A DNA stretch of 61,990 nucleotides, taken from contig JAJRRT010000011.1 of assembly GCA_024279255.1 (NCBI GenBank), forward strand, positions 1 through 61,990, written 5' to 3'. The notes beneath the pieces are model-generated. The model had not been told where the DNA came from, did no database searches, and saw nothing but the letters and a program-made list of their open reading frames with translations. Position 1 is the stretch's first letter; each line of letters begins with the position of its first letter. This DNA is from Deltaproteobacteria bacterium. Lineage in GTDB: Bacteria; Desulfobacterota; Desulfuromonadia; Desulfuromonadales; Geopsychrobacteraceae. A program made the translations under genes and the position numbers. Shown one piece after another: positions 43,401 to 60,881 of the stretch.

Positions 43401-43734
43401 TCTGTCTCAACTTTTATTTCAAGCAAATATAACGACGTTTGTTGTTTGCCTAATTTAATGTGTATTAAAGACAGGCACTTACCTGACAATGTTTGGGCAC
43501 ACCACTTCTGCTGTCGATAATGGAACGATGTTTGATATAGGGAGTTATAGCCCCTCGTCCATCAATTTTGACAAACTGGACATAGCGGATAATTGAACCA
43601 TTTATTTTTAATGATTTACGTTGTTGCGTGATTTTTAACCGGACAGTTATGAAATTAACACTCAAAGAAAAGGAGAGCTTAAACAAAGTCGTCGTTTTTA
43701 TGAGATGAACATATTCAAAATAAGGAGATTTTTG

Positions 43735-45369
43735 ATGAGCATCACCAAACGTAGGTTGAGATTTTCATTGTCTGGCAAAGCCTGTGCTGTTCTTGCGGGT
43801 ATTGTCCTTTTCTTCGCCTCCCCAGTCATGGCGTTTACCTTTTCCGCTGGAGAACTGGAGGGTGGCCTGGATATCACCCTCGGCTACGGAACTTCCTACA
43901 GCACGGAAGGTGGCAACACGCTGAACTATACCAACACAACACACTTCGATGCGCCCAACTATAAGAGCGATGAAACCTTCAGAGGCACGGGTATTGTCTC
44001 ACAGGTCTGGAAGTTTCTGGGTGAGCTGGACCTTGCTTACGAGGATTACGGCTTTAAATCTACCGCAAGCTTTGCCTACGACACCGAGATCATGAATAAG
44101 CAGCGCAATTACGACTATGATTTCGACGGTATCAAGGATAGCTGGAGTAAAGAAGCCATAGATGCCTCGGGGCGGGTCTTCAATCTCCTGGATGCTTATG
44201 CCTACGGCACCTTTCTGGATGATTCGCTGGACATCCGGGTCGGCCGACAGGTCATCAACTGGGGCGAAGGGCTGGTCTTTATGGAAGGTGTCTCTGTGCA
44301 GGCTCCATTCAACATCAATAATCTGGTTCTGCCCGGTTCGGAATTGAAGGAAGCCTTCATGGGCCTGGGCGGTGTTCGCGCACAGCTTGCCGCAACCGAC
44401 AATCTTTCATTCGATGCCTACTGGCAGTGGGAATGGCAGAAAAACAAGTTCCCGGGTACCGGTACCTTCTACGGTGACGATATCCTTGCGTCCCCCGGCG
44501 CGGAAAAGGAGACTTTGGCCTGGACAGGGGGAGCTTTCGGGTTTGAGGATCGCGAAGAGGATGTCAACGAAACCAACCAGTGGGGTATTTCAGCCACCAG
44601 TTTTATCGGCAACTCAGAATATGGCATCTACTATTCCCGTTACAACGATGCCATGCCGTCGGTCGGATTTGACCTGAATAACGGTAACCTTTTCGTCGCC
44701 TATGCTGAAGACCAGGACATGATTGGTATCAGCATGGCTACGTCTATTCCGGGCTTTGGTGCCTGGACAATAAACAGTGAGCTTTCCTACCGTCCAGACC
44801 GCAGGATCGCCACCGTTATCTTTGGCGGTCCCAATGGTATTGGTCTTAACGATGATGGCCAGTACTGGACAGAAGCTGACACCTGGAATGCATCGGTTCA
44901 CGGTTTCTGGCTAGGCAAAGCCTTCGTCGGCGGAATTGATTCCCAGTTCGCCTTCATTCAGGTTGGTGTCGATATTGTGGACTATGACGGCCCGATGTCG
45001 GACTTACATCCCATGCTGGTCGATCACGATGCCGCGGCTGACCGGGGTGATGGCGTCTACGAGGTTGTTAGCTCTGATGAAGAAGTATCGACAACAGCCT
45101 GGGGCGTTGCCGCTGAATGGGATGCGACCTGGCAGTCAGTCTTACCCGCTGTCGACGTCACTCTCGCCCTCTTTGCGCAGTATGATTTTGCTGGCAACTC
45201 CCACTTGACCGGTAATTTCTCCGAGGGACGTTTGCTCAGCTCAATCGGACTCTCCTCCGTTATCCACAACGATTGGGAGACTGGCTTATCTTACGCGCGC
45301 ACCGATTACAGTGATAGCAATTACGAAGTCCAGAACACGATCAATTTCAACGTCAATTACAAATTCTAA
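43735..45369 (+). CDS. DUF1302 family outer-membrane protein
   Basis: A large predicted outer-membrane beta-barrel of 544 aa. The signal peptide runs to about residue 34 (FFASPVMA). The mature part opens with FTFSAGELEGGLDITLGYG, characteristic of DUF1302, and ends NTINFNVNYKF with the terminal Phe of barrel proteins. The start at 43735 follows AAGGAG; an in-frame ATG ten codons earlier lacks a ribosome site. DUF1302 proteins are found with DUF1329, YCF48-like and RND proteins in clusters thought to move hydrophobic compounds or lipids across the envelope. Exactly that order follows here. Confidence 0.9.
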   Translation: MSITKRRLRFSLSGKACAVLAGIVLFFASPVMAFTFSAGELEGGLDITLGYGTSYSTEGGNTLNYTNTTHFDAPNYKSDETFRGTGIVSQVWKFLGELDLAYEDYGFKSTASFAYDTEIMNKQRNYDYDFDGIKDSWSKEAIDASGRVFNLLDAYAYGTFLDDSLDIRVGRQVINWGEGLVFMEGVSVQAPFNINNLVLPGSELKEAFMGLGGVRAQLAATDNLSFDAYWQWEWQKNKFPGTGTFYGDDILASPGAEKETLAWTGGAFGFEDREEDVNETNQWGISATSFIGNSEYGIYYSRYNDAMPSVGFDLNNGNLFVAYAEDQDMIGISMATSIPGFGAWTINSELSYRPDRRIATVIFGGPNGIGLNDDGQYWTEADTWNASVHGFWLGKAFVGGIDSQFAFIQVGVDIVDYDGPMSDLHPMLVDHDAAADRGDGVYEVVSSDEEVSTTAWGVAAEWDATWQSVLPAVDVTLALFAQYDFAGNSHLTGNFSEGRLLSSIGLSSVIHNDWETGLSYARTDYSDSNYEVQNTINFNVNYKF

Positions 45370-45415
45370 ATCGAATCAGGGCTGATATGACCTTTAGATA
45401 TAAGGAGTTCGAAGA

Positions 45416-46774
45416 ATGATGAAAAAGACGATTGTAACGATAAGCTGTTTGGCTGTTTTGGCTGCGGCGAGCCTTACGTCGGCCGCTGTGTCGGCCGAAG
45501 AAGCCGCCCGGCTGGGCAAAGATCTCACCCCGATGGGTGCCGAAAAGGCAGGCAATGCCGACGGCACGATCCCGGCCTGGGAGGGGGGCTATACCACGCC
45601 CTTTCCTGGCTGGAAAGAGGGTGACGCCCGCCCCGACCCTTATGCCGATGACAAAGAGCTATTCACGATAACCAAAGATAATATGGCTAAATACGCCGAC
45701 AAGATCCCGGAAGCATCCAAGGCGATGCTCACGGCGTACCCCGATGAATTCAGGATGCATGTCTACCCGACGCGCCGTAGCGCCGGCTTCCCTCAGTGGT
45801 ACTACGACAACATCAAAAAGGCCGCTACCGACGTTAAACTGAACCCTGATGGTAACGGCGTCACCGGTGCACACGCCACAATCCCTTTCCCGATTCCACA
45901 AAATGGCAAAGAGGTCATCTGGAACCACATGCTGCGCTTCCAGGGCTATGTCCGCGATATGGTTTTCTCGGAAAACACCATGTACAAGGGTGGCGCCGAC
46001 CTGCTCACGACCTTGGATAATCAAGTTATTTATCCTTACTTCGATCCGAATCTTAGCGAAGCCGATAAGCAAGAGGGCGTGCTGTATAAGTATTCCTCTA
46101 CCACGCGTACGCCTTCCCGCGACGCAGGCGAGGGTCTGCTGGTTATGGACAACATCGACCCAGCTAAAATTCCCCGCAAGGCCTGGCTCTATGATCCCGC
46201 CGAACGCCGCGTTCGCCGCTTGCCAGACCTTGACTATGATACCCCCGACCGTCCCGAAAACGTGATCGATGACTATGACATCTATAGCGGCTCGCCAGAG
46301 CGTTATGATTTCAAGCTCATCGGCAAAAAAGAGTTTTATGTCCCTTACAACAACAACAGAGTCAACTCCAACGAACGCTCCCTCAAGGAAGACTGGGGCG
46401 ACTGGATGCTCAACTCCGATCTGATTCGTTACGAACTGCACCGGGTTTGGATGGTTGAGGCGACCGTTACTGAGGGACAGCGGCATGTCTACGCCAAGCG
46501 GGTCTTCTACGTTGATGAGGATTCCTGGACGATTCTGGTTACAGACAAATATGACGGCAGCGGCAACCTGTGGCGCGTAGGTTACTACTACCCGCTTACC
46601 GCAGCTGAAGTTCCAATGTTCGGTGGTGGCTTTGTCGCTCATTATGATCTCAAGAAAAATGCCAGTTACACAATTTACGCCCCGAATGGCATGAAGAAGT
46701 CAGCCAGCTACACCAGCAAGCCGGAAAAGAATAAATTCTTCACGCCGGCGGCGCTTAGAAGACGTGGTCGTTAA
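45416..46774 (+). CDS. DUF1329 family periplasmic protein
   Basis: A periplasmic protein of 452 aa with a signal peptide ending near residue 28 (AAVSAEE). The segment ARLGKDLTPMGAEKAGNADG, followed by TIPAWEGG, is the family hallmark. Later parts such as RVWMVEATVTEGQRHVYAKR resemble the LolA/LolB-like lipid-carrier fold attributed to DUF1329. It would pass a hydrophobic cargo between the RND pump and the DUF1302 barrel, by inference. The start may be either of two adjacent ATG codons; AAGGAG lies upstream. Confidence 0.9.
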   Translation: MMKKTIVTISCLAVLAAASLTSAAVSAEEAARLGKDLTPMGAEKAGNADGTIPAWEGGYTTPFPGWKEGDARPDPYADDKELFTITKDNMAKYADKIPEASKAMLTAYPDEFRMHVYPTRRSAGFPQWYYDNIKKAATDVKLNPDGNGVTGAHATIPFPIPQNGKEVIWNHMLRFQGYVRDMVFSENTMYKGGADLLTTLDNQVIYPYFDPNLSEADKQEGVLYKYSSTTRTPSRDAGEGLLVMDNIDPAKIPRKAWLYDPAERRVRRLPDLDYDTPDRPENVIDDYDIYSGSPERYDFKLIGKKEFYVPYNNNRVNSNERSLKEDWGDWMLNSDLIRYELHRVWMVEATVTEGQRHVYAKRVFYVDEDSWTILVTDKYDGSGNLWRVGYYYPLTAAEVPMFGGGFVAHYDLKKNASYTIYAPNGMKKSASYTSKPEKNKFFTPAALRRRGR

Positions 46775-46795
46775 GAGCTAAAGCCCATCAAGTAG

Positions 46796-46833
46796 GCACC
46801 CTGGTTCTTTTATAACGGAGCCAGGGTGCTTTT
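46796..46833 (+). terminator. Internal terminator or attenuator after the DUF1329 gene
   Basis: The stem GCACCCTGG / CCAGGGTGC with a 16-base loop is followed by TTTT. Since the genes on either side belong to the same cluster, it probably lowers expression of the YCF48-like and RND genes relative to the two upstream ones. Confidence 0.75.
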
Positions 46834-46897
46834 GCGTCAGGGTTTGATTCGCAAAATTTGGATGCGACATATGGCTGTTGGAACCAAAGGAAATCGG

Positions 46898-47908
46898 ATG
46901 GAAGCAACAGAAAAATCAAGATATTGGCGGCGCGTGATTCTGGTCGCGTTAATGACTCTCATTAGCTCTTTTACTGCACAAGCTGCATACCAAGACGTTA
47001 TTGAGATGAAGGCCGAGAAAGTAGATCTCGCAAGCACTTCGCTTGCCCTGGATGTTGCCAGGGCCGGAGATCGTCTGGTGATCGTTGGTGAGCGCGGCCA
47101 TGTGCTCTACTCAGACGATAATGGGGAGAGCTGGACACAGGCTGACGTAGAAACGCGCAGCCAACTAAACGCAGTTGCCTTTGTTAATCACAAGTTGGGC
47201 TGGGCCGTAGGCGAAGATGCGGTGATCGTACACACCACAGACGGCGGTAATAGCTGGACGCGCCAGTTTGACGATCGAGATGCCGACATACGCGGGCCGT
47301 TGCTCGACGTGGTTTTTTTGAGTGAAAAAGAGGGGTTTGCTGTCGGCGTATTCAACAAGATGTTTAAAACCACCGATGGTGGCGTCACCTGGAACGATTG
47401 GTCCGGGCACGTAGATAACCCCGACGAGTGGCACTTTTTTAATATCACCGTCGCGGCGGATGGAGCCCTCTACATCGGTTCGGAACAGGGACTTATCTTT
47501 AAATCTGCAGATAGAGGTGAAAGTTTCGTCTCGATCCAAACTGACCACATAGGTAGCTTTCCAGGCGTCATGGTCCGTAGAGGAGAAGATGGCAGCGATC
47601 GGGTTATCGCTTTTGGTCCCGGTGGTGCCGTCTGGGTCAGCAGAGATGGTGCCGTGAGCTGGACGGAACTGGAGAATAAAAGTTCTGCGGGCCTGCTGGG
47701 CGGTACCTTGCTAGCTGATGGCTCGGCAGTCATCGTGGGTCATGAGGGGATGTTGCTGCGTATAGACAGGCTGCTTAGTGAGCTTAGCTCCTATCCCAAT
47801 GAGAGTGGGGTGCCTTTTAATGCGGTAATGCCTGTGAGTGAAAAGAGTTTGATCCTGGTTGGCTTTGGTGGCCCCCAAATCGTAGCGATCCCCCAAGCTG
47901 GTCAGTAG
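46898..47908 (+). CDS. YCF48/BNR-repeat periplasmic protein
   Basis: A beta-propeller type protein of 336 aa, predicted to be exported. The signal segment is LVALMTLISSFTAQAA. Several BNR-like repeats are seen: LYSDDNGESWTQ, VHTTDGGNSWTR, FKTTDGGVTWND, FKSADRGESFVS and WVSRDGAVSWTE. This is the YCF48/photosystem-stability-factor-like fold that usually accompanies RND transporters of this cluster type, probably as an assembly or scaffold factor. The start at 46898 has AAAGGA upstream; a longer in-frame reading begins inside the terminator. Confidence 0.88.
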   Translation: MEATEKSRYWRRVILVALMTLISSFTAQAAYQDVIEMKAEKVDLASTSLALDVARAGDRLVIVGERGHVLYSDDNGESWTQADVETRSQLNAVAFVNHKLGWAVGEDAVIVHTTDGGNSWTRQFDDRDADIRGPLLDVVFLSEKEGFAVGVFNKMFKTTDGGVTWNDWSGHVDNPDEWHFFNITVAADGALYIGSEQGLIFKSADRGESFVSIQTDHIGSFPGVMVRRGEDGSDRVIAFGPGGAVWVSRDGAVSWTELENKSSAGLLGGTLLADGSAVIVGHEGMLLRIDRLLSELSSYPNESGVPFNAVMPVSEKSLILVGFGGPQIVAIPQAGQ

Positions 47909-47932
47909 TCGAGGAGCAAAAAGGTTTAGCTT

Positions 47933-50260
47933 ATGAATAGTCAAATAAAGTTCAAATGGTATGAAAATGCCATCTTCAAACACCGGGGTGTGATCCTTGC
48001 CCTGAGCCTTATCGCGACATTTTTTTTCGCTTATCAAGCCTTTCAAGTACATCCCGACACACGGCTTGAAAGGCTGATTCCGGGAAGCCACGAGTTTGTA
48101 CAAAATGCACGAGAATTTCTCGGTTCTGAACAGGTCGGCGGATCAAGCGTTGTGCGTGTAGCGGTAGAACGCACCGATGGTGACACGATCTTTGACTACA
48201 AATATCTGCTGACCCTGCAGAAGATAAGCGATGAGCTTTCTCTCCTGGAGGGAGTCGACACCGGCAGTCTCAATTCTCTTTGGGCTCCGGGTATGCTCTG
48301 GTTTGCAATTACACCTGAGGGTTTTAGCAGCGGTCGGGTGATCGAAAACAATAAGTTTGTCGACACTCCCGAGTCGATGGAAGAGATAAAGGTTAACACT
48401 TTTCGTGCCGGGGTGGTGGGCAGTTACGTCTCAGAGAACTTCAAAGCGACGATGATCGATTTCTCCGTCCTGCCGATAAGTCCCAAGACGCGCCAGCCAC
48501 TTGATATGGATGCGTTTACTGCAAAACTTGAGGAGATTCGGGCTAGATACAGCGATCAAGGTGTCAGCCTCCACATTATCGGTGATGTCAAAAAAGTCGC
48601 CGACCTGGTGGGCGGTTTTAGCAAAATCGGTCTCTTCTTCCTTGGTGCGATTCTCATTACCACACTGCTGCTCTACCAATATTCACGCGGATACAAGGCG
48701 ACAATTGTTCCGCTCGCCTGCTCGATCGTTGCTGTGGTGTGGCAATTGGGCGTGCTCAACCTGATGGGCAATGGGCTCGGGATTTTTTCAGTGCTGGTGC
48801 CGTTTTTGATTTTCGCCATCGCGGTCAGCCATGCCGTTCAGGTTATCAATGTGATAGCCCACGAAGTCGGTAATGGTGAAACTCGACTTGTGGCCGCAAA
48901 GCGCGCCTTCCACCATTTGCACAAACCTGGTTTGGTGGCGCTTTTGAGCGATGGTCTCGGCTTTGCCATGCTCTTTATCATCGATATCGGCGCGATTAAA
49001 GATTTAGCGATGGTCGCCTCTGTCGGTGTCGCTGTTGTCATCTTTACCAACCTGGTGCTGCTGCCGATCATCATGAGCTACGTAGGCATCACGCAAAGCT
49101 GTGTCGAACATGCACAAAGCAAACTCACCGATAAATCGGCGCTGTGGGATGGAATTGCTTGCTTCGCCACGACCAAGATAGCGCGGTTGACGCTCGTTGC
49201 GGCAGTCGGTTTGCTGGTCATCGGTTTAATCGGCGGGAAGGATCTGAAGATCGGCGACCTGGACAAAGGGGCTCCCGAGTTGCGTGCCGATTCGACCTAC
49301 AATATCGATAACACTTTTATCACCAGCACTTTTTCTACCTCTACCGATCTGATGAGCATCTTTGTCGGTACCCCTAAGGGGGGGTGTGAAAGCTTCAAGG
49401 TGATGGACCTGATCGACCGCCTCGGCTGGAAATTACAAAACACAGAAGGGGTGCAGTCGGTTGCTTCACCTGTCTCGGTCGCCAAGGACAGTCGTTTCTT
49501 CGGCAACGAGGGGAATCCGAAGTTTTGGGCGGTGCCACGTGATGAGAGGGTTCTTGGCCGAGCAATTGCCATGACCGGATACGCTATGAACACGAATAAT
49601 CTCGAATGCAACATGCAACAGATTGATCTGCAATTGGCCGATCACAAGCAGGCCACCCTGCAGACAGTGACCAACGAGGTGCGCGCGTTTGCTGTCGACA
49701 ATGACGACGCTGACATTTGGTTTCGCCTAGGTGACGGTAACGCAGCTTTTGAAGCGGCGACCAATGAGGTCATAACTGCGGCCCAGTTCAAAATACTGCT
49801 CTATATCTACGGGGTGGTGGTGCTCATGGTGTTCATGACCTTCAGGTCGGTAAAAGCCGTGCTCTGTATCATCCTGCCGCTGGCACTCACCTCGGTCCTG
49901 GCCAATGGATTGATGGCAATGCTTGGCATCGGCGTGAAGGTGGCAACGCTTCCGGTTATTGCCCTTGGGGTCGGGGTCGGGGTTGACTACGGTATCTATA
50001 TTTACAGCCGCTTGACTTCCTTTATTGCAGAAGGGCATTCCCTGGACCTCGCCTACGTCGAGACGCTTAAGACCACCGGCAAGGCCGTGTTCTTCACGGG
50101 CATCACTTTGGCGGTGGGTGTTGCCACCTGGTATTTCTCGCCGATCAAGTTCCAGGCCGATATGGGCATCCTTCTAACCTTCATGTTCCTCTGGAACATG
50201 CTCGGCGCACTTTTGCTTTTGCCTGCCTTAGCCAATGTTTTGAGAGTGGGACATAAATAA
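47933..50260 (+). CDS. RND superfamily (MMPL-type) transporter
   Basis: An inner-membrane RND permease of 775 aa. One N-terminal helix precedes a periplasmic domain, followed by two sets of five or six membrane helices (about 225-390 and 620-770) and a second large periplasmic domain between them. The transmembrane motif GVGVGVDYGIYIYSRLT is typical of MMPL/HpnN-like pumps. Such transporters move lipids, hopanoids or other hydrophobic molecules. It closes the DUF1302 cluster and is followed 117 bases later by the amine dehydrogenase operon on the same strand. Confidence 0.92.
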   Translation: MNSQIKFKWYENAIFKHRGVILALSLIATFFFAYQAFQVHPDTRLERLIPGSHEFVQNAREFLGSEQVGGSSVVRVAVERTDGDTIFDYKYLLTLQKISDELSLLEGVDTGSLNSLWAPGMLWFAITPEGFSSGRVIENNKFVDTPESMEEIKVNTFRAGVVGSYVSENFKATMIDFSVLPISPKTRQPLDMDAFTAKLEEIRARYSDQGVSLHIIGDVKKVADLVGGFSKIGLFFLGAILITTLLLYQYSRGYKATIVPLACSIVAVVWQLGVLNLMGNGLGIFSVLVPFLIFAIAVSHAVQVINVIAHEVGNGETRLVAAKRAFHHLHKPGLVALLSDGLGFAMLFIIDIGAIKDLAMVASVGVAVVIFTNLVLLPIIMSYVGITQSCVEHAQSKLTDKSALWDGIACFATTKIARLTLVAAVGLLVIGLIGGKDLKIGDLDKGAPELRADSTYNIDNTFITSTFSTSTDLMSIFVGTPKGGCESFKVMDLIDRLGWKLQNTEGVQSVASPVSVAKDSRFFGNEGNPKFWAVPRDERVLGRAIAMTGYAMNTNNLECNMQQIDLQLADHKQATLQTVTNEVRAFAVDNDDADIWFRLGDGNAAFEAATNEVITAAQFKILLYIYGVVVLMVFMTFRSVKAVLCIILPLALTSVLANGLMAMLGIGVKVATLPVIALGVGVGVDYGIYIYSRLTSFIAEGHSLDLAYVETLKTTGKAVFFTGITLAVGVATWYFSPIKFQADMGILLTFMFLWNMLGALLLLPALANVLRVGHK

Positions 50261-50376: not shown

Positions 50377-51939
50377 ATGCGCAAAAAGATAATTACCCTG
50401 ATAACGCTGATTCTGTCGATGGGGGTTTTAGCCCCTGGGGCTATGGCATTCAGCAAGGATTCGTTGATCTGGGCAAAGTGTACCGGTTGTCACGAGGCTA
50501 AAGGGGGGAAGATATCCAGGGTTGAGGAACTGCGCACGACACCCGAGGAGTGGGTAGTCATCGTCGATCGCATGGCCCGATTGCATGGGATGGATCTGGA
50601 GTCGGGTGAGATGAACCCACTTATCAAGGAGCTTAGCGCGACTCAAGGACTCACATCCGAGGAGGCTGAACAGGTTCAATATCTTGATCTGTATAACAAT
50701 CCGCAGAATGTGGAAACTCCCCGAGCCGGTGATCCGGAAAAACTGTTTGTGACCTGCGTGCGCTGTCACAGTGCGGGGAAAATCTATTCTTACCGGATGA
50801 CCGGGGCGGCCTGGGCAAAAATCCGCGACTTGCATCTCTACATGGTTCCGACAGTCATTGGTCAGATGCGCGAGATGAAGTGGATTCCTGAGGCCGATGC
50901 CGTGTTGGCCCAACTGGCCAAGAGCCAGCCCTACGGCTCTGCTCTAAAGGTCCCCAAGGCTTCGCCCGTCGGATCATGGCTGATTCTGGGATATGAGCCC
51001 GGTAAGGGAAATTACCGTGGGCAAGCAAGGATCAAAAATGCTGCGGACGGTGATTATGAGATCGTCGGCTCCTTTGAATATGCAGACGGCACAGCAGAGA
51101 GCTTCTTCGGCGATGCTTCGCTCTACGGCGGCACCGCCTTACGCTTCAACACCAGTCAGAACGGCGCCAAAGTAGCGGGCGCTTTCATCTTCGCTGATGG
51201 CACTTTGCGCGGGCAGCATAGTTTTGCTGCCCCCAAGTTCCGCACATCCACCAGCACCTGGTATCCGCTGAAGGGTAAGTCAAAGGTTCTCAGGCTGAGT
51301 CCGAACTATCTGATCAGTGGTGAAACGACCACTCTGGTATTGGAGGGGATCAAACTACCGAAAGTAACGGTCGCTGACGTTCATGTTTCCGGTGGCGCCT
51401 TGAAGGTGCTCTCCGCAAAACAGCGGGGTTCCAATGCGATCGAATTGCAGGTCCTTTATCGTGGAAAGGGTGCGGCACAGACCAGACTCAGCGTTAAAGG
51501 GATGGCTGCCGGGACCTTGAATCTGGTTGCGCAGATCGATTATATCGCCATCACTCCCGAGTTGGGGCGTGCCAGGGTTGACGGTGGTCAAAACTTTCCC
51601 TCCGAAGGGGTGCAGTTTGATGCCATCGCTTATTCCAAGGGGGCGAACGCCAATGACCCGGCAGACGATGTCGTGCTGGGACCGGTTGCCGCGGAATTCA
51701 GTTTGAGTGAACTGGTCACCAGACCCGACGATGATGATCTGCACTGGATGGGCAGAATCGCCGAGAATGGGAACTACCTCCCTTCTGGTGACTACGGCCC
51801 TCTTCCTGCCAGAGAATTCCAGGGTGAAGGGACAGGGCTGGTCAAGGTTAAGGCTGAGTATAAGCGGGGCGATCGTCACTACTCGGCGGAAGCCCGACTG
51901 GTGGCCACCGTACCTGACTATATTCCCAGGATTAAGTAA
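50377..51939 (+). CDS. qhpA: Quinohemoprotein amine dehydrogenase, alpha subunit
   Basis: The diheme subunit of periplasmic quinohemoprotein amine dehydrogenase, which oxidises primary amines to aldehydes and ammonia. It is 520 aa with a signal peptide ending near residue 24 (PGAMAFS). Two c-type heme sites, CTGCH (35-39) and CVRCH (127-131), fit the family's N-terminal diheme domain. The remainder is beta-rich and made of Ig-like domains, as in the known structure. The order alpha-radical SAM-gamma-beta is the same as in Paracoccus and Pseudomonas qhp operons. CAGGAGG precedes the ATG. Electrons would pass from CTQ to these hemes and on to a periplasmic carrier not encoded here. Confidence 0.95.
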   Translation: MRKKIITLITLILSMGVLAPGAMAFSKDSLIWAKCTGCHEAKGGKISRVEELRTTPEEWVVIVDRMARLHGMDLESGEMNPLIKELSATQGLTSEEAEQVQYLDLYNNPQNVETPRAGDPEKLFVTCVRCHSAGKIYSYRMTGAAWAKIRDLHLYMVPTVIGQMREMKWIPEADAVLAQLAKSQPYGSALKVPKASPVGSWLILGYEPGKGNYRGQARIKNAADGDYEIVGSFEYADGTAESFFGDASLYGGTALRFNTSQNGAKVAGAFIFADGTLRGQHSFAAPKFRTSTSTWYPLKGKSKVLRLSPNYLISGETTTLVLEGIKLPKVTVADVHVSGGALKVLSAKQRGSNAIELQVLYRGKGAAQTRLSVKGMAAGTLNLVAQIDYIAITPELGRARVDGGQNFPSEGVQFDAIAYSKGANANDPADDVVLGPVAAEFSLSELVTRPDDDDLHWMGRIAENGNYLPSGDYGPLPAREFQGEGTGLVKVKAEYKRGDRHYSAEARLVATVPDYIPRIK

Positions 51940-51941
51940 CC

Positions 51942-53333
51942 ATGAATCACCAGTGGGAAGATCATAAAATTTTTGATGTCGGAGATGGCGCAGTCCTCTT
52001 CGGGGTGGACCATGCGAGTCTGTTTTCCATCGACGCGCAAACGCGAGAGGTCATTCAGCGTCTGGGATCACGCCCCTCTCTGGATCTTAAAGAGGTCGAT
52101 CCGCAAGATCGGGAGATTCTGGCCGGGTTGCAAGATGCCCGATTGTTGTTGCCGGACACCCAGGCGGGCAGGGCTGCTCCCATACCTCCGCAGCTGCAGG
52201 ATGTTCCGCTGGGGACTATGGTCCTGGAAGTGGCTCAGGACTGTAATCTGCGCTGCACCTACTGTTACGCCGAAGGCGGGTCCTACGGCGGGAAACCCCG
52301 CCTGCTTACTTCGCAACTGGCGCGTAAGGCTGTCCGTTATCTGATTCAGGAGGCAGGCGACCGCGAGACACTCAGTCTGGTTCTGTTTGGCGGTGAACCG
52401 CTGCTGAACATGCCCGCGATCGAAGCTGCGGTCGAAGAGGCCGTGCGCGGTGAAAAAGAGACGGGTAAAAGAGTCCAGATCTCCCTGACGACCAACGGCA
52501 CGCTCCTGAATCCGGAGATCATCAACTTTTTGCAACGTTATCGCGTGGGTGTTGCAATCAGTCTTGACGGTCCTCCCGACCTGCACGATGCCAACCGCCC
52601 CGATGTTGCCGGACAGGGCAGCTACGCCAAAATCCTGCCGAACCTACAGGGGCTGCTGCACAACAGCCCAGCACCGGTCGCGGCACGGGTGACTCTGGTT
52701 CCGGATCAGTGGGGACGCATTGAGGAGGTTTATGATCACCTGATCGGTCTCGGGTTTCATGAGGTTGGCATCGCGCCGGCCAGCCCGATTACCACTGATC
52801 TGCTTCCCAGTCTCGTGCAGGAAGAGATTCTCCTGCAGGGATTTGCCTCCATGGCTCGCCGTTTCAAGGAGGCGGCGGATCAGGGACGGATTCTGCCGTT
52901 CAGCAACATTCTTGATCTGTTGGGACGGTTGCATCTGGGTCAGACCAAGTCTGTTGCCTGCGGAGCCGGCTTCGGTTACCTGGCAGTCGATGCCGAGGGG
53001 AACTTCTTCCCCTGTCACAGGCTGGCCGGGGAGGATATTTTTCACGTCGGAGCTCTCGATACTGGCGCCGATGTAGAGAAAATCGAGACGAGTCTGGCAA
53101 TCCTCACCGAAGGCAAAAAACAGATGTGTTCGGACTGCTGGGCCAGGACCCTCTGCACTGGCGGTTGTCACTACGAAAACCACCTCAGGGAAATCAAGCT
53201 GGGGTTGCCGCCGGGAAGCAGTTGCAATTTTATCCGGAGTTGGCTGCAACTCGGTATCGAGCTTTATGCTGAATTACGAAGTACAGGCGCTGACTCTCTG
53301 CTTGAACGTTTAGAGAAACGGGCCGCCTGTTAA
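51942..53333 (+). CDS. qhpD: Radical SAM maturase QhpD
   Basis: The radical SAM/SPASM enzyme that installs the Cys-to-Asp/Glu thioether crosslinks in the gamma subunit before export. It is 463 aa and starts two bases after qhpA. An N-terminal region of about 90 residues resembles a peptide-recognition domain. The cluster motif is CNLRCTYC (Cys101, 105, 108), with LFGGEPLLN following. The SPASM part contains ACGAG, FPCHRL, MCSDCWARTLCTGGC and a last SSCNF, as expected for two auxiliary clusters. The known reaction is oxygen-independent and fits an anaerobe. Confidence 0.94.
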   Translation: MNHQWEDHKIFDVGDGAVLFGVDHASLFSIDAQTREVIQRLGSRPSLDLKEVDPQDREILAGLQDARLLLPDTQAGRAAPIPPQLQDVPLGTMVLEVAQDCNLRCTYCYAEGGSYGGKPRLLTSQLARKAVRYLIQEAGDRETLSLVLFGGEPLLNMPAIEAAVEEAVRGEKETGKRVQISLTTNGTLLNPEIINFLQRYRVGVAISLDGPPDLHDANRPDVAGQGSYAKILPNLQGLLHNSPAPVAARVTLVPDQWGRIEEVYDHLIGLGFHEVGIAPASPITTDLLPSLVQEEILLQGFASMARRFKEAADQGRILPFSNILDLLGRLHLGQTKSVACGAGFGYLAVDAEGNFFPCHRLAGEDIFHVGALDTGADVEKIETSLAILTEGKKQMCSDCWARTLCTGGCHYENHLREIKLGLPPGSSCNFIRSWLQLGIELYAELRSTGADSLLERLEKRAAC

Positions 53334-53368: not shown

Positions 53369-53698
53369 ATGGATAAGAAAAGTCGGATCGAGGCCTTGAA
53401 TCAAAAAGCCCGGGCCATAGAGGCATTGTCAGAAGGAGAAAAAAAATCTGTGGAGGCTCTCTCGGAGGGAGATCCCTTGAATATGCCGGTCGGCTGCACC
53501 ACCATCTTTGACACCGGCTGGGAAACCAACCCGCGTCCGACCTATCCGGTCAGTAACTGCCAGTCCTCGGCGCGTGACTATCACGGTTGTGCCGGGGATT
53601 GCTGGTGGCCAGCCCAGGTTCCGGATGGCCTCACCAATAATCCGGATTTCGACGTGGCTTGTCCCAATATCGCCCGGGACTGGCGCACTCTGAAATAG
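53369..53698 (+). CDS. qhpC: Quinohemoprotein amine dehydrogenase, gamma subunit (CTQ precursor)
   Basis: The small catalytic subunit that carries cysteine tryptophylquinone (CTQ), 109 aa. Aligning by eye with the Paracoccus protein, every crosslinking residue is kept: Cys43-Glu52, Cys64-Asp70 and Cys78-Asp86 for the thioethers, and Cys74 with Trp80 for CTQ. The leader is about 34-36 residues (highly charged, DKKSRIEALNQKARAIEAL) and contains no Sec signal, as expected for export by QhpF and cleavage by QhpE. The fifth Cys, Cys98, is extra. The 71-base spacing to the beta gene is typical of the operon. Confidence 0.95.
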   Translation: MDKKSRIEALNQKARAIEALSEGEKKSVEALSEGDPLNMPVGCTTIFDTGWETNPRPTYPVSNCQSSARDYHGCAGDCWWPAQVPDGLTNNPDFDVACPNIARDWRTLK

Positions 53699-53770: not shown

Positions 53771-54781
53771 ATGAACATCAAAAAGTACGGCTTTCTAGCA
53801 GCAATACTGCTTTGCACCATGGTGGTCAGTGATCGGGCCGAGGCCAAGGATCTGATATTCCACATGGGCAATGAAATGATCCAGGTCATCGATGCCGACA
53901 CCGATGAAATAACCAATATCCCGATCGTAGGAGCCTCCCGCGACTCGGTCTTCTCAGCGGACAAGAAGTTTCTCTATGTGACTGGTACCCGCAGGGTTAT
54001 TCACACCCTTGACCTGGAGAAGATGCAGATTGTCAACAGCATCAAGGTCGAAGAAAAAGGCTGGGAACGCTTCATCTACGGGTTCGTCGTCAGTCAGGAC
54101 GGCAAGACCGGCTACGTCAATGTTTTTTCCCGTCGGACCGAAGCGGGTGAGGTGGTCATCGACCAACCCGAGCTTCTCCAGATCAATCTCGCCACCGGCA
54201 AGATCCTGCGCAGCCTGGACGTGCCCTTTGGTGTGGTCAGCTTAAGCCTGGTCGAAAACGACACGAAGGTGTACGCCCTTGGCCAGGACATCTATACCAT
54301 CGACGTCTCGAAAAAGCAGATGAAGATTGTCGATACTATCTCGATGTTCGAGCGGGGAATCAACATCCTGGCGTTGTGGCACTACACCGCCGAGAATGAC
54401 GGTGTCTGGCTTTCTCCCTACTACTCTGCCGAAGGGATGGGATTGCTGAGCATCGATACCAAAAGCGGAAAGATCACCGAGACCATGCTGCAGGGCGAGC
54501 CACCCTTTGCTTACAATGCGATTTACTCCCCCGACAAGACCAAGGCCTACACCATTATGGATGATGTGGCCGTCATCGACCTGAAAAGCAGAACCTACGA
54601 GAAGATCGTGCCGATTGCAGAAGGAACCTGCTACGGCATCATTCCGACTACTGATGGCAAGAAACTCTATGCCGGAGCAGGTGGCTCAACGATTACGGTC
54701 TTCGATGCCGAAACCATGCTGCCGATCAAGGTGTTACAGATGGAAACCGATGGCATGGGCATGCGCAGGTTGACCTTGTAG
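53771..54781 (+). CDS. qhpB: Quinohemoprotein amine dehydrogenase, beta subunit
   Basis: A periplasmic seven-bladed beta-propeller, 336 aa, that with the alpha and gamma subunits forms the amine oxidation site. The signal peptide ends near residue 25 (DRAEAKD). Repeats such as KFLYVTGTRRVIHTLDLEKM, AYTIMDDVAVIDLKSRTYEK and KLYAGAGGSTITVFDAETM mark the propeller blades. Resemblance to methylamine dehydrogenase heavy chains is of the same kind. ACAGGAG precedes the ATG. Confidence 0.93.
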   Translation: MNIKKYGFLAAILLCTMVVSDRAEAKDLIFHMGNEMIQVIDADTDEITNIPIVGASRDSVFSADKKFLYVTGTRRVIHTLDLEKMQIVNSIKVEEKGWERFIYGFVVSQDGKTGYVNVFSRRTEAGEVVIDQPELLQINLATGKILRSLDVPFGVVSLSLVENDTKVYALGQDIYTIDVSKKQMKIVDTISMFERGINILALWHYTAENDGVWLSPYYSAEGMGLLSIDTKSGKITETMLQGEPPFAYNAIYSPDKTKAYTIMDDVAVIDLKSRTYEKIVPIAEGTCYGIIPTTDGKKLYAGAGGSTITVFDAETMLPIKVLQMETDGMGMRRLTL

Positions 54782-54868: not shown

Positions 54869-55693
54869 ATGGAATACGCGCTACGGCTATCGAGTCCCGG
54901 ACCCTTACCGGAGGACCCTCGCTGGTTGTGTCCATCAAACTGGCAGGCTCTGCTCCCCGAAGGGCCCCTTAAAGCCATCTATTTCGGTTCCGAATTCTGT
55001 CAGGACCTGCTCCCCGGCTGCGAAGAGGCTGAACAGTTTTGTGCGCTGGCCAGGGAGGCTGGGATAGAAGCGGTCCTGCTGACCCCGGTGGTTCGTGCCG
55101 ACGGGCTTTGTCGGGTTGAGACGCTGGTCAGCGACCTCAAAAGCCAGGGCTGGTCACCGACTCTCGTCTTTAACGATCTTGGGGTGTTGCGGATGCTGCG
55201 CAACGAGCACCCACAGATCAAACGCCAGGCCGGCCGGCTGATCAACCGTGCTCTCAGGGATCCGCGTCTTGCCGAACAGCCTTCGACAGCGCAAACCACG
55301 GAGTCGACCCGAGGTGGGCAGATTCGTGACCTGTTGTCGCGCTTCGGTGTCGCCGGGCTGGAGACCGATCCCGATCTGGAAGGGACCTACCTCGGAGATG
55401 GGACGGACGGTCTGCAGCGGGTGTTGCATCTGCCCTACGCCTTTGCAGCCTCCGGTCGAAACTGTCTGCTCAAGGCTGAAACCCGGAAAGAAGAGAAGAA
55501 TTTCGCTAAGTTGCTGAGTCGTCCCTGTTCCGCTCCATGCCGGGAACACTGGCACGCGGAGGAACGCACTGACCTTGAATTTCCCCTCTGGCGCGCAGGG
55601 AACACTCTTTTTTATGAGGTGCCCCGGACAGCGGTTGAGGCGCATTTGCACCAGGCCGACAGAATCGTCATTCACGAAAGGCCGATGCCATGA
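54869..55693 (+). CDS. UbiV-like U32 family protein (candidate CTQ hydroxylation subunit)
   Basis: A 274-aa cytoplasmic protein resembling UbiV of the U32 family, which holds a [4Fe-4S] cluster and works with UbiU in O2-independent hydroxylation. Signs of kinship are AIYFGSEFC (Cys44, where UbiV has YLGEVVC), LVFNDLGVLRML and AGRLINRALRDPRL, a stretch typical of U32 relatives. Three C-terminal cysteines, Cys199, Cys220 and Cys224, follow the Cys-x(n)-Cys-x3-Cys layout of the UbiV cluster. The gap between the first two is longer than in UbiV. The next gene overlaps by four bases. Its place in the qhp operon suggests action on the QhpC tryptophan; that is inference. Confidence 0.75.
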   Translation: MEYALRLSSPGPLPEDPRWLCPSNWQALLPEGPLKAIYFGSEFCQDLLPGCEEAEQFCALAREAGIEAVLLTPVVRADGLCRVETLVSDLKSQGWSPTLVFNDLGVLRMLRNEHPQIKRQAGRLINRALRDPRLAEQPSTAQTTESTRGGQIRDLLSRFGVAGLETDPDLEGTYLGDGTDGLQRVLHLPYAFAASGRNCLLKAETRKEEKNFAKLLSRPCSAPCREHWHAEERTDLEFPLWRAGNTLFYEVPRTAVEAHLHQADRIVIHERPMP

Positions 55694-56658
55694 GACTACT
55701 TGCTCCCCTGAGGAATTCTTCAGAGGTGGAACCTCTGCTGGCGGCCGGAGCCGAAGAGTTCTACTGCGGGCTTACTCCGCCGGCCTGGCAGGAGACTTTC
55801 AGCCAGAGTTGGATCAACCGCCGCTCGCCGGCGTCCGCCGGGGTTTCAGATCTTGCCGATTTTCGGCAGATCCTGACCCGCGCGGCAGGGCTACCTGTAT
55901 ATGTGGCTCTCAACGCACCTTTTTATCCGGCCGGGGCCATGGAGATGCTCACTGCGTTCAGTGTCAGGCTCCTTGAAGAGGGGGCCTCCGGGTTGATTGT
56001 CGCCGACCTCGACCTTCTGCTCGCCCTGACCGATGCCGGTCTGGCCTCCAGGATTCACCTTTCAAGCCTTGCCACCTGCACCAATCCCGGTTCTGCCGCC
56101 TTCTTTCAGGAACTGGGAGTCTCCAGGATCATTCTACCGCGGCATCTGACCCTGGATGAAATCGAAGAATGCCTGATCCCCGGACTGGAGTTCGAGACCT
56201 TCCTGTTAAACGACGGCTGTGCCTTTGAGGAAGGGCTTTGCGCAACGACCCATGCCGCCGGGGCCTTTTGCCTGAATGATGCGGAACAAACTCAGTCGAT
56301 CTCAAGCCAGACCCTGGAGAACTATGAATTCTGGAAGTGGACTCTGAATCATTGCGGCTGCAAAACCAACCGTGGCTACCCTGTTGGCCCCTGCGGGTTG
56401 TGCGCCTTGCCGAGATTACTTAAGGCCGGGGTGAGCAGCCTCAAGGTGGTGGGGCGTGAGGCTTCTCTGGACAGGAAAAAAGCCTCGGTGAGCCTGGCCG
56501 CCATGGCGTTGCAATTGGCCCGTTCCGGTGCCGGGTCTGAGGAGATCCGTGCGGCGGTGATCGCGCTGCGTGGTGGAGCCTCACTCTGTCAGGGAGGGCA
56601 CCTCTGCTACTATCCCGATGTCTGGGCCGGACAGGAACCAGAGGGGGACAAGTGCTGA
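55690..56658 (+). CDS. UbiU-like U32 family protein (candidate CTQ hydroxylation subunit)
   Basis: A 322-aa protein of the U32 'peptidase' family. It opens RLLAPLRNSSEVEPLLAAGA and then EEFYCG, the standard U32 start (LLAP-G----AGA---Y-G). The middle contains SRIILPRHLTLDEIEECL, equal to the family's R-LSL-EI segment. Cluster-type cysteines follow in LLNDGCAFEEGLC, AFCLND, NHCGCKTN and GPCGLCALP. The late SSLKVVGREAS is another U32 landmark. It overlaps the UbiV-like gene and, by seven bases, qhpF, so all three are translationally linked. In ubiquinone synthesis the analogous pair hydroxylates without oxygen. Here the operon lacks QhpG, the oxygen-dependent enzyme. Older 'collagenase' names for U32 proteins should not be taken literally. 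Confidence 0.85.
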   Translation: MRLLAPLRNSSEVEPLLAAGAEEFYCGLTPPAWQETFSQSWINRRSPASAGVSDLADFRQILTRAAGLPVYVALNAPFYPAGAMEMLTAFSVRLLEEGASGLIVADLDLLLALTDAGLASRIHLSSLATCTNPGSAAFFQELGVSRIILPRHLTLDEIEECLIPGLEFETFLLNDGCAFEEGLCATTHAAGAFCLNDAEQTQSISSQTLENYEFWKWTLNHCGCKTNRGYPVGPCGLCALPRLLKAGVSSLKVVGREASLDRKKASVSLAAMALQLARSGAGSEEIRAAVIALRGGASLCQGGHLCYYPDVWAGQEPEGDKC

Positions 56659-58400
56659 AAGCGATTAAACAATTTACACGCCACTTGCGGGGTAAGAAGG
56701 GTTTGCTTACGGCGGTATTTCTTCTTGGCTTGGCCGGGTCGGCAACCTCTTTGGCGACGCCCCTGATCGGCAAGAGCTTTATCGATGCCGTAGCGGAGCG
56801 CAGAGATTTCTCCGGCGTGCCGTTGATTGCCGCAGCTCTGCTCGGGTTGGCCGTAGCTGATCTATTGCTGGGGACGCTGACCCGGGTGGTGCATACCAAA
56901 CTCTCGGCAGCTGTGCTGGTCGAGATCAGGGAGCGAATATTCGCGCACTGTATTAATGCGCCACTGACGGCGCTTGAGCGTTTTCGCCACGGTGACCTGC
57001 TGAGCAGGTTTGGGACCGATATCTCCAAGATTCAGACTCTGCTGGTTGATGGAGCTCTCGGTTTTATTCAAAACCTGATCTTTCTGATCGTGGCGGCAGT
57101 AATTCTATTCAACCTCTCCAGTAGTCTGGCCCTGTGGAGTTTTCTGGGGATTGCCATCGCACTGGTGGTTACCGCCGCCTTTCGGGGCCCGATTGAATCG
57201 GGGACCAGGGGGATTCGGGAGGTCATGGCCGGACTCTCACACTTTCTTTCGGAACGGCTGGGGGCCTTGCGTGCCATACGCTTGCATGCCACTCAGCAAG
57301 AGGAACAGCAGCGCTTTGGTCGACATAATGCCGATCTGGTCAGCAAGCTGTTGAAGTTTCAGGTGCTGGATGCGGCTGCTTCAGGCCTGCCTGGCATTAC
57401 CCTGACCGCGAACCTGGCCTGGATCTATCTCTTGGGGGGCGGGTTGCTGGAGCGGGGCGAGATCAGCCTGGGGACTTTTGTCGCCTTCATCCTTTATCAG
57501 GGCCGTCTGTACGGGCCTGCGCGAGGATTGTTGGGGCTGGTGAGGAATCTTCAGGAGGTGCGTGTGAGTCTGGAACGGGTCACAGAGGTCCTCAATGACG
57601 AAGGCGAACTCTGTGGTCAGACGAGGAGGGATGATCGCTGCGCGGCCGGTCTCCTCATCAAGGATATCTCCTTTACTTATCCGGGAAACCCACAGCTGTT
57701 GCATGGCGTAACTCTTCAGATCTCCGCCGGGGAGCGGGTGGCTCTTTTCGGTACTTCTGGAGCGGGGAAGTCGACTCTGGTGCAGATTCTTTTCGGGCTG
57801 CGCCGGGCGCAGCAAGGACAAGTTTTATTGGGCGGAAGGAGCATCGGTTATGCGGGGAGCGATCCCTTTCTGCTGCATGCATCGGTTGAGGAGAACCTAC
57901 GCTACGGAAATCCTCAGGTCAGTTTCGATGCAGTCGTTGATGCGGCGCGCATTGCTGCGGTTCACGATTTTGTTGAAGAACTCCCACAGGGCTACCAGAC
58001 GATCATCGGTGGTCGGGGCCTGGCGCTCTCTGACGGGCAGCGACAGAGGTTGGGGATTGCCCGGCTGGTTCTGAAGCACCCCGATATTCTGGTTTTTGAT
58101 GAAGCCTTCTCAGCGCTGGATCCCGAGACCGAGGCTCTGGTGCGGCGTAACCTCTGGAATCATTTCCAGAAGCAGATCATTTTGATGATAACGCATCGGC
58201 TCGGGGGATTGGACGAGTTCGATCATCTTTATCTGCTGCAGAACGGGCGACTTCGTGAGGTTGACGAAAAGGGGCTTGTTGTGGCTTTAGGGGTGTTTCC
58301 TCTCAGTGAAACCGGAGCAGATGGAAGAGTTGCAACTCAACCAATTGTTCAACCAGCACATAACAGCCACGCTCTTGAAGTGGCACGGAGATCGGCATGA
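56652..58400 (+). CDS. qhpF: ABC transporter QhpF, exporter of the gamma subunit
   Basis: A full-length half-transporter of 582 aa with a membrane domain of six helices (about 20-310) and a nucleotide-binding domain. Walker A GTSGAGKST, signature LSDGQRQRLGIA (a D in place of the usual G at the second position of LSGGQ), Walker B ILVFDEAF and the H-loop MITHRL are present. In characterised qhp operons QhpF carries the crosslinked gamma subunit to the periplasm. The start is GTG at 56652, overlapping the stop of the preceding gene. The C-terminal tail of about 60 residues after the ATPase domain is unusual. Confidence 0.9.
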   Translation: MLKAIKQFTRHLRGKKGLLTAVFLLGLAGSATSLATPLIGKSFIDAVAERRDFSGVPLIAAALLGLAVADLLLGTLTRVVHTKLSAAVLVEIRERIFAHCINAPLTALERFRHGDLLSRFGTDISKIQTLLVDGALGFIQNLIFLIVAAVILFNLSSSLALWSFLGIAIALVVTAAFRGPIESGTRGIREVMAGLSHFLSERLGALRAIRLHATQQEEQQRFGRHNADLVSKLLKFQVLDAAASGLPGITLTANLAWIYLLGGGLLERGEISLGTFVAFILYQGRLYGPARGLLGLVRNLQEVRVSLERVTEVLNDEGELCGQTRRDDRCAAGLLIKDISFTYPGNPQLLHGVTLQISAGERVALFGTSGAGKSTLVQILFGLRRAQQGQVLLGGRSIGYAGSDPFLLHASVEENLRYGNPQVSFDAVVDAARIAAVHDFVEELPQGYQTIIGGRGLALSDGQRQRLGIARLVLKHPDILVFDEAFSALDPETEALVRRNLWNHFQKQIILMITHRLGGLDEFDHLYLLQNGRLREVDEKGLVVALGVFPLSETGADGRVATQPIVQPAHNSHALEVARRSA

Positions 58401-59080
58401 ATCAGCAGTTGAGCTCCGCCGCCGCAAGGACTCTTCGGGTTGGGATTATCGACACCGGAGTGAACCCCTGGCATTCCCATGTCCGCGGGCAGGTGAGTGG
58501 AATTCGGATTTTTTCGGACGCTCAAGGGAGAATTCAGGAGGATGAAGATTTTCGGGACATTGTCGGCCATGGTACGGCGGTCGCCGGAATTCTGCGTCAA
58601 GGGTTGCCCGATGCAGAACTCTTTGTTGTGCGGGTCTTTGATGGGGAGCTGAATGCCTATCCGTCGTTGGTGGCCCGGGCTCTTCTGAGGGCCGCTGCTG
58701 AAGGGTGCCAGATTATCAACCTCAGTTTGGGAATGCCTCCTGGCCCGGGAAGTGATGTTCTTGAGCAGGCCTGCCGAGCTGTGCTGGAGGCAGGATCTGT
58801 GCTGGTGGCGGCTGGTCATCCACAGAAGCCGGGTCTGCTTCCTGCGGCGTTGGCCGGTGTGGTTGGTGTGATCTCCGCCGAGCATCTTAAACCAGGGGAG
58901 ATTGAGATCAATCCGCAGCGCTCCTATTCACATCAGGCCTCAGGCTGGCCGCGCGATCTAAAAGGCCTGCCACCTGCTGTGAACCTGTGGGGCAATTCTT
59001 TCGCCTGTGCTCGGGTCAGTCTCGATTTGGCGCTAAATACCAGCCTGGGCAAAGAGGATAATTTGTCCCTTTGCCTTTGA
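58397..59080 (+). CDS. qhpE: Subtilisin-like protease QhpE, leader peptidase of QhpC
   Basis: A compact serine protease of 227 aa with the subtilase triad: Asp19 in IIDTG, His58 in GHGTAVAG and Ser201 in WGNSFA. The segment VAAGHPQ has His where many subtilases have the oxyanion Asn, a point worth noting. There is no signal peptide, so it acts in the cytoplasm on the crosslinked gamma subunit, as QhpE does in Paracoccus. It overlaps qhpF by four bases. The small size is normal for QhpE. Confidence 0.9.
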   Translation: MNQQLSSAAARTLRVGIIDTGVNPWHSHVRGQVSGIRIFSDAQGRIQEDEDFRDIVGHGTAVAGILRQGLPDAELFVVRVFDGELNAYPSLVARALLRAAAEGCQIINLSLGMPPGPGSDVLEQACRAVLEAGSVLVAAGHPQKPGLLPAALAGVVGVISAEHLKPGEIEINPQRSYSHQASGWPRDLKGLPPAVNLWGNSFACARVSLDLALNTSLGKEDNLSLCL

Positions 59081-59153: not shown

Positions 59154-60881
59154 ATGCCCGGAAAAGTATTTCGCGTCAATATGTCAAATCTGTCGGTGAG
59201 TATAGAAGAATTTCCCGCTAAATGGGCGGGTCTCGGAGGACGGGGTTTGACCTCGACCATCGTCGCCCAGGAAGTGCCGCCGACCTGTCATCCGCTTGGC
59301 GAGCACAATAAGCTGGTTTTTGCACCGGGATTATTGACCGGAACAGCTGCCGCCAATTCAGGGCGCATGTCGGCCGGAGCCAAAAGCCCACTGACCGGTG
59401 GGATCAAGGAGAGCAATGTTGGTGGGACAGCCGGTCAGCTGTACGCACGAATGGGGATCAGGGCGCTTATCATCGAGGGACAACCGACCGGTGACGGTTT
59501 CTACCGTTTGCATATCACCAAGGATGCTGTTGAGATCAGTGAAGATACCGAACTGGTTGGTCAGGGCAATTTCGCGGTGATTGAGACCCTCATGCAGAGA
59601 ATGGGCAAGCGGGTCGGGGTGCTCAGTATCGGCAGCGCCGGTGAAAGGAAAATGGCTGCGGCCAATATTTCTGTTTGCGATCCGGAAGGGAAAATCCGCA
59701 GTTTCGGCCGCGGCGGTCTTGGTGCCGTCATGGGCGCAAAGAGGATTAAATGCATCACCCTGGACGCCACTGATGCTCCCGGGGTGGAAATTGCCGACCC
59801 AGAGCAGTTCAAAAGCGCCTCCCGGACTTTTTCCAAAGCATTGCTTGGGCATCCAGTGAGTGGGGAAGGTCTGCCGAATTTCGGAACGAACGTTCTTGTC
59901 AATGTCATCAACGAGGCTGGCGGGTTGCCGACCAGAAACTTCCGCTACGGGCAATGCGCGGGGCACGATAACTTCTCCGGCGAGACCATGCGCGAGCGTA
60001 TTCTGGAGAGAGGGGGAAAGCCCCGCCATGGCTGTCATCCCGGCTGTATCATCCAGTGCTCCCAGGTCTACAACGACAAGGATGGCAACTATCTGACTTC
60101 AGGATTTGAATACGAAACCATCTGGGGGCTTGGCGCCCATAGCGGCGTGGAGGATCTGGATCAGATCGCACTGGCTGATCAGCTTATGGATGATATCGGC
60201 GTGGATTCCATCGAAACCGTAGTTGCTGTCGGAGTGGCGATGGAGGGAGGTGCATTGCCTTTTGGTGATGGCGATGCCACCGTCAGCCTGATCAGGGAGA
60301 TCGGTTCCGGCACTCCTTTGGGACGCATTCTCGGAAATGGTGCGGCTTCAGTCGGCAAGGCCTATGGCGTGACTCGGGTGCCGGTGGTCAAGGGACAGGC
60401 GATTCCGGCCTATGATCCGCGGGCGATCAAGGGGATCGGCATCACCTATTGCACCACTCCCATGGGGGCTGATCATACGGCAGGGTACGCCGTGGCTTCG
60501 AATATCATGGGGATCGGCGGGCTGGTTAATCCACTGAGTAAGGAGGGACAGATAGAGCTATCGCGGGAATTGCAAATAGTGACTGCCGCAGTCGACAGCA
60601 CCGGTCTGTGCCTCTTTGTCGCGATGGCGCTCTCCGATGATCCCGAGGCTTTTCCCGCCCTGGTTACAATGCTCAGCGCCCGCTACGGAGAACCGTTGAC
60701 CGGTGAAGATGTCGCTGCTCTCGGGAAAAAAGTTCTTCTTCTTGAGCGCGAATTTAATCTTGCCGCTGGTTTTACTAACAAGGACGATCGTTTGCCGGAG
60801 TTTTTCAGTGAGCCGATTCCCCCTCACAATGCCGTCTGGGATTTTAGCGGGGAAGAGATCGACGAGTTCTGGAATTTTTAA
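59154..60881 (+). CDS. Aldehyde:ferredoxin oxidoreductase (tungsten/molybdenum type)
   Basis: A cytoplasmic AOR-family enzyme of 575 aa that oxidises aldehydes to acids with ferredoxin-type electron transfer, or the reverse. N-terminal GGRGLTSTIV and the pterin-contact segment SPLTGGIKESNVGG are family features. The [4Fe-4S] cysteines are Cys294, Cys298 and Cys302 in GCHPGCIIQC plus Cys486 in DSTGLC. AYDPRAIKGIGITYCTTPMG marks the second cofactor domain. It follows qhpE after 73 bases on the same strand. It is a good candidate for removing the aldehyde made from amines by the Qhp enzyme. Confidence 0.93.
   Translation: MPGKVFRVNMSNLSVSIEEFPAKWAGLGGRGLTSTIVAQEVPPTCHPLGEHNKLVFAPGLLTGTAAANSGRMSAGAKSPLTGGIKESNVGGTAGQLYARMGIRALIIEGQPTGDGFYRLHITKDAVEISEDTELVGQGNFAVIETLMQRMGKRVGVLSIGSAGERKMAAANISVCDPEGKIRSFGRGGLGAVMGAKRIKCITLDATDAPGVEIADPEQFKSASRTFSKALLGHPVSGEGLPNFGTNVLVNVINEAGGLPTRNFRYGQCAGHDNFSGETMRERILERGGKPRHGCHPGCIIQCSQVYNDKDGNYLTSGFEYETIWGLGAHSGVEDLDQIALADQLMDDIGVDSIETVVAVGVAMEGGALPFGDGDATVSLIREIGSGTPLGRILGNGAASVGKAYGVTRVPVVKGQAIPAYDPRAIKGIGITYCTTPMGADHTAGYAVASNIMGIGGLVNPLSKEGQIELSRELQIVTAAVDSTGLCLFVAMALSDDPEAFPALVTMLSARYGEPLTGEDVAALGKKVLLLEREFNLAAGFTNKDDRLPEFFSEPIPPHNAVWDFSGEEIDEFWNF

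Follow-up and report, generated by a model that had tools for sequence, protein, structure and literature searches.

The qhp operon of the window

The window, a stretch of 61,990 nucleotides from a genome of the Geopsychrobacteraceae, carries on its forward strand a qhp operon in the order QhpA, QhpD, QhpC, QhpB, V32, U32, QhpF and QhpE, followed by a homologue of aldehyde:ferredoxin oxidoreductase (AOR). The alpha subunit QhpA (50377..51939) passes the cut-offs of PF09098, PF09100 and PF14930 and reaches 270.7 bits with TIGR03908 (cut-off 274.35), and the beta subunit QhpB (53771..54781) finds its best NCBIfam match in TIGR03907 (75.4 bits, under the cut-off of 223.2). The best NCBIfam matches of the radical SAM enzyme QhpD (51942..53333), the expected maker of the Cys-Asp/Glu thioethers, and of the subtilisin-like leader protease QhpE (58397..59080) are TIGR03906 (335.7 bits, cut-off 453) and NF049966 (134.4 bits, cut-off 165). 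QhpA, B, D and E are thus divergent, with qhp models as their best NCBIfam matches yet with scores under the curated cut-offs; the precursor of the gamma subunit, QhpC (53369..53698), is well over its own (NF037958, 124.7 bits against 50). The ABC transporter QhpF (56652..58400) is assigned from PF00664, PF00005 and its place in the operon.

Two genes lie between the structural genes and qhpF: V32 (54869..55693), an open reading frame of 274 residues that we treat as the UbiV-analogous half of a pair, and U32 (55690..56658), a PF01136 protein of 322 residues, the UbiU-related half. They are the overlapping genes described in the initial annotation, and V32 has the motifs given there (FGSEFC, NDLGVLRML and C199-x20-C220-x3-C224). 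The reading frames of V32 and U32 share 4 bp, the end of U32 overlaps the start of QhpF, and QhpF overlaps QhpE, so that the pair is very likely on the transcript of the operon.

The AOR homologue (59154..60881; PF01314, PF02730), which also stands downstream of the qhp operon in several relatives, possibly consumes the aldehyde product of amine oxidation. Upstream of qhpA, a block of DUF1302, DUF1329, YCF48-like and MMPL genes occupies 43705-50260; a YCF48-like gene is likewise found near the V32-U32 pair of another locus (L050). Genes for a histidine kinase and a sigma-54 response regulator (39640-43172) are possible regulators of the operon.

Absence of QhpG and retention of its substrate

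We searched for QhpG with NCBIfam NF049967 (cut-off 240 bits), which places four plasmid QhpG proteins over its cut-off (370 to 558 bits), one of them matching the solved QhpG 7ctq at E 1.8e-153. No QhpG was found in the window's genome (91% complete), where the best match, 38.6 bits, is a partial FAD-binding-type stretch; the operon therefore has qhpD, qhpF and qhpE but no qhpG, as first annotated. The search of a single-contig genome of the same genus (G004, rated 100% complete, judged to be Geopsychrobacter electrodiphilus) likewise found none (best 51.9 bits), which rules out that the missing QhpG is an artefact of an incomplete genome. Partial matches under the cut-off also occur in 14 control genomes.

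Two rhizobial plasmid clusters outside qhp also pass the cut-off of the model (280-285 bits), so scores slightly above it require context. The matches of G074 (253 bits) and G088 (261 bits) adjoin qhpA. The 179-bit match of G070 was rejected as QhpG and counted as a paralogue, because G753 and G787 share the 1-301 partial match and have in addition a QhpG match over the cut-off. On the two rhizobial plasmids (L255, L257) the QhpG-like flavoprotein gene adjoins a QhpD-like radical SAM gene with no annotated qhp gene around, and L255 also has a ferritin-like gene; these gene pairs are candidates for the making of another tryptophan-derived cofactor.

Aligned with 1jju_C and 1jmx_G, QhpC retains the CTQ residues Cys74 and Trp80 together with the thioether residues. 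We take CTQ to arise from Cys74/Trp80 and the thioethers to be Cys43-Glu52, Cys64-Asp70 and Cys78-Asp86, paired as in the solved structures. Cys74, Trp79, Trp80 and the thioether residues are kept, bar one Asp86, in 74 rows (duplicate rows counted), of which 57, including the exception, come from pair-bearing genomes and 17 from genomes with QhpG only. The window therefore encodes the protein on which QhpG would act, and QhpG is absent.

Relation of U32 and V32 to UbiU and UbiV

U32 belongs to the U32 superfamily (PF01136, 97.2 bits against a cut-off of 22.4), and its profile matches that of UbiU with a probability of 99.9% in hhalign. Its score with the UbiU model NF047963 is 56.1 bits (two relatives, 86.8 and 91.2) against a cut-off of 440 and 559.9 for E. 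coli UbiU. In a quick tree with long branches, nine UbiU rows form one clade (SH-aLRT 99) and 62 qhp-type rows another (96); this tree omits the short rows L033 and L041 and includes a stray row, L156_RlhA. Sequence comparison thus indicates that U32 is related to UbiU yet is not UbiU.

The conserved cysteines of U32 are C177, C184, C194, C235, C238, C300 and C306. The UbiU cluster cysteines C169, C176 and C193 are matched in 62/62 qhp-type rows (duplicate rows counted), and the fourth ligand, C232, is matched at its column in 0/62; C235 and C238 may substitute for it. In one Deferrisomatales MAG, the U32 gene (L044:10804-11772) is broken into two reading frames, through damage to the gene or an assembly error.

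For V32 there is no match in Pfam or NCBIfam, and the search with the UbiV model NF047965 (cut-off 275 bits; E. coli UbiV 363.1) returns nothing at E up to 10. Profile comparison by hhalign gives 1.3% (E 0.039) against a small UbiV profile of five rows and, as a control, 0.2% (E 0.32) against QhpG. Its cysteines C44, C199 and C220 are kept in 65/65 rows and C224 in 64/64 (duplicate rows counted), and all four align with the cluster cysteines C39, C180, C193 and C197 of E. coli UbiV, from which they are predicted to be Fe-S ligands. The AF2 models of V32 (pLDDT 91.6) and U32 (85.5) both have 5d88 as top Foldseek match, and other TIM barrels tie with it for both models in VIA-align. V32 may thus be kin to UbiV, as suggested by predicted fold and aligned cysteines and not by sequence homology. 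The initial description of the pair as UbiU/UbiV-like does not hold in that wording, as neither protein is UbiU or UbiV by the NCBIfam models.

Occurrence of the pair

A search at E up to 0.001 found 321 homologues of V32. A wider search gave 824 proteins; of the 120 listed (P0241-P0360), none has a Pfam domain or is named UbiV, and some are named Bathyarchaeia. A pattern scan with the V32 alignment over a collection of 84,980 species returned 57 loci, and all 28 with at least 43% V32 identity lie in qhp gene clusters, several of them cut by contig ends. Together with the 321 homologues, this indicates that the presence of V32-U32 in the qhp operon is not due to chance. These close loci come from Desulfuromonadota, Burkholderiales and Gammaproteobacteria, and the relatives there have the pair placed as in the window.

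Among the more distant loci, six Bacillales qhp clusters (V32 identity 25-28%) have the order C-A-D-B-V-U-F-E, and several Rhodocyclales-type clusters (near 30%) the order A-D-C-B-F-E-V-U. Pairs within qhp clusters span three phyla. Other loci about as distant have the pair with no qhp gene within the stretch examined, and no qhpC was seen in the pair-bearing MAGs G083 and G085. One Helarchaeota genome, one Undinarchaeales genome and two of Omnitrophota (L048, L053, L054, L059) likewise have U32 and V32-like genes side by side and no qhpC, suggesting that the wider U-V family has other jobs; it is possibly an unnamed pair of hydroxylases. On separate contigs of the window's own genome (L002 and L007; wider stretches L019 and L020) lie a further UbiU-like gene, its product 35% identical to U32, and a further V32-like one (30%); no qhp gene was found in the 9.6 and 6.7 kb around them.

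Distribution of the pair and QhpG among qhpC genomes

Among the 55 genome entries of the scan (three genomes entered twice) QhpG is over the cut-off in four, and in none of the 28 close ones. A search by taxon found qhpC in 7/398 Pseudomonadota, 14/244 genomes of the window's class, 2/39 of the Brevibacillus order, 17/121 of the Thauera family and 7/398 of the Neobacillus class, 46 different genomes in all, some of which had already surfaced in the V32 scan. The U32 gene was scored by operon or by whole-genome search of 38 genomes, in which qhp-type matches reach at least 343 bits and UbiU types at most 257; in G881, G975 and G993 QhpG was scored within 19.5 kb only.

The distribution is complementary: 31 genomes carry the pair only, 11 QhpG only, four both and none neither. 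The counts are 27, 11, 3 and 0 without five draw centres already known as pair-bearing (G000, G062, G075, G076, G077). A Fisher test on the first 40 genomes gives p = 6e-7, descent being ignored. Three Rhodocyclaceae (G737, G764, G775) were initially taken to have neither system; the whole-genome search found the pair in each, about 13-14 kb from qhpC in G737 and G775 and on another contig in G764. That none of the 46 qhpC genomes lacks both systems, and that no qhpG was found elsewhere in the window's genome, supports the original proposal that the pair stands in for QhpG.

Mutual exclusion is not clean. Both systems occur in four of the 46 genomes (G077, G771, G825, G828) and in four more from the V32 scan (G074, G079, G088, G089), eight overall, although in G089 QhpG consists of two pieces under the cut-off on two contigs. 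In G771, QhpG is found about 2 Mb from the pair-type operon, and the 19.5 kb around it contain no further qhp gene. G825 has two qhp clusters (L167, L168): one has QhpG together with a pair close by, the other the pair alone. Presence of both systems in most genomes, which by the initial annotation would refute the proposal, is not what we see; coexistence is the exception.

The accompanying expectation that QhpG and the pair would divide along aerobic and anaerobic life fails as a simple rule, as Bacillales such as Brevibacillus and Neobacillus have the pair without QhpG and many Bacillales are aerobic. This conflict is eased by the activity of UbiUV in air, where its hydroxylation is reported to be O2-independent as well (PMC10470549).

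History of the two systems

On a quickly built tree of 70 QhpD proteins we count five changes of the pair-only state, at least four of them forced by supported branches, and one pair-only group is nested within a QhpG group. Rooting on four outgroup radical SAM proteins leaves two pair-only lineages as the deepest (support 87, long branches), a hint that the pair preceded QhpG. The plasmid rows L078-L081 are labelled QhpG-only from the plasmid stretch alone. Duplicate genomes (L157, L173-L175) were left out of the tree, as were, for speed, five further rows from the rooted tree and, from the family sets, L021, L022 and L027, copies of L016, L014 and L017.

A tree-aware sign test, with one row dropped for each genome with two qhp loci, is not significant and cannot reach significance with its only four supported independent comparisons; QhpG changes in the opposite direction in about two of them, is unchanged in about two, and never changes in the same direction.

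A putative O2-independent route to CTQ

Based on these results, we consider it likely that V32 and U32 fill the place of the missing QhpG as a joint Fe-S, O2-independent hydroxylase that adds two oxygens to Trp80 of QhpC. UbiU and UbiV are described as a heterodimer with one 4Fe-4S cluster per subunit (PMC6747719), and we infer a comparable V32-U32 heterodimer with Fe-S clusters. In the proposed order of steps, QhpD would form the three thioethers in QhpC, and V32-U32, each subunit with its expected cluster, would then hydroxylate the Trp80 indole twice. By analogy with UbiUV, RlhA and TrhP, the oxygen would come from an organic donor, likely prephenate, and not from O2. Prephenate is reported as the oxygen source of U32 hydroxylases in a review that describes direct evidence on their reaction as still lacking (PMC11574389). 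Cys74 would add to the hydroxylated ring, with oxidation giving CTQ, after which QhpE would cut off the leader and QhpF would export the product.

The pair might instead assist QhpD, as an Fe-S redox partner or as a scaffold for the thioethers, with Trp80 oxidised by another enzyme. A partner role is conceivable, since QhpG itself is reported to form a ternary complex in which it promotes the reaction of QhpD (PMC7876137), and the conservation of cluster-type cysteines in both V32 and U32 would also fit. A helper role is nevertheless unlikely: it leaves unexplained the swap pattern (35 pair-bearing qhpC genomes, 31 of them without QhpG, and 11 genomes without the pair), and it provides no source for the two oxygens, as the genes scanned between 36817 and 61472 include no Pfam oxygenase.

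The divergence of QhpA, B, D and E raises the question of whether QhpC bears here a cofactor other than CTQ, made by the pair. We regard this as very unlikely given the near-complete conservation of Cys74, Trp79, Trp80 and the thioether residues in the 57 pair-bearing rows. A role in making or modifying an isoprenoid quinone, with the operon location due to chance, would suit the kinship of U32 to UbiU. However, a separate ubiU-ubiV-ubiT locus is present in seven of the genomes examined, and in five of these the qhp-type pair occurs elsewhere as well, which argues that the pair is not the ubiquinone enzyme; with UbiU and qhp-type U32 in separate clades and the pair in the qhp clusters of three phyla, we reject this role as highly improbable. 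That U32 is a true peptidase for leader removal, as the Pfam name Peptidase_U32 would have it, is hardly credible with QhpE in the same operon and conserved cluster-type cysteines that fit the Fe-S hydroxylase branch.

The interpretation of the initial annotation is partly supported. More tentatively, hydroxylation of Trp80 by the pair, the reading we prefer, may be extended to a joint reading in which no U32 hydroxylase was previously known to have a protein substrate and the pair allows O2-free CTQ formation, drawing on prephenate and, within U32, on an additional Fe-S site. The pair would then be the ancestral route, and QhpG with its use of O2 would have arrived later, within Pseudomonadota, both being kept by some Rhodocyclaceae as facultative bacteria keep both ubiquinone routes.

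The making of protein-derived quinone cofactors is generally regarded as requiring O2. If our proposal is true, a U32 pair would explain CTQ assembly in anaerobes, and proteins would join the substrates of a young enzyme class with chemistry still open, for which the pair would offer a test case that is soluble and amenable to genetics. CTQ would also parallel ubiquinone, for which two unrelated hydroxylases, of which one uses O2 and the other does not, are swapped or coexist. In the open-licence PMC literature, the scope of our search as distinct from subscription papers and preprints, we found nothing that joins tryptophylquinone, quinohemoprotein or QhpG with U32 proteins.

Comparison with known systems

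The best Foldseek match of both models, 5D88 (U32 peptidase Mk0906), is an uncharacterised single protein with 18% and 12% identity to the two models. TrhP and RlhA are U32 family members whose hydroxylation is reported to need prephenate genes (PMC11574389); unlike the pair, they are single proteins with RNA substrates. For the characterised U32 hydroxylases, the substrates named in the relevant part of the same review are a quinone precursor and RNA, with no protein among them.

UbiU-UbiV resembles the pair in its adjacent genes, in U32-type folds, tentatively so predicted for V32, and in aligned cluster cysteines (3/4 for UbiU, 4/4 for UbiV). In contrast, U32 has a clade of its own and both proteins are far under the UbiU and UbiV family cut-offs, the qhp-type U32 has the extra conserved C235, C238, C300 and C306, the predicted substrate is a protein, and no UbiT-type gene is present among the scanned neighbours of the pair.

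QhpG, the peptidyl tryptophan dihydroxylase (7ctq, NF049967), differs from the pair in sequence: profile comparison does not link it to V32, and U32 belongs to the U32 family. It also differs in chemistry: QhpG is described as an O2-using flavoprotein that takes both oxygens from O2 and adds them to crosslinked QhpC held with QhpD (PMC7876137), whereas the pair is predicted to be Fe-S-dependent and O2-independent. In the set of qhp maturation genes QhpG and the pair occupy the same place, and they are predicted to yield the same dihydroxylated Trp.
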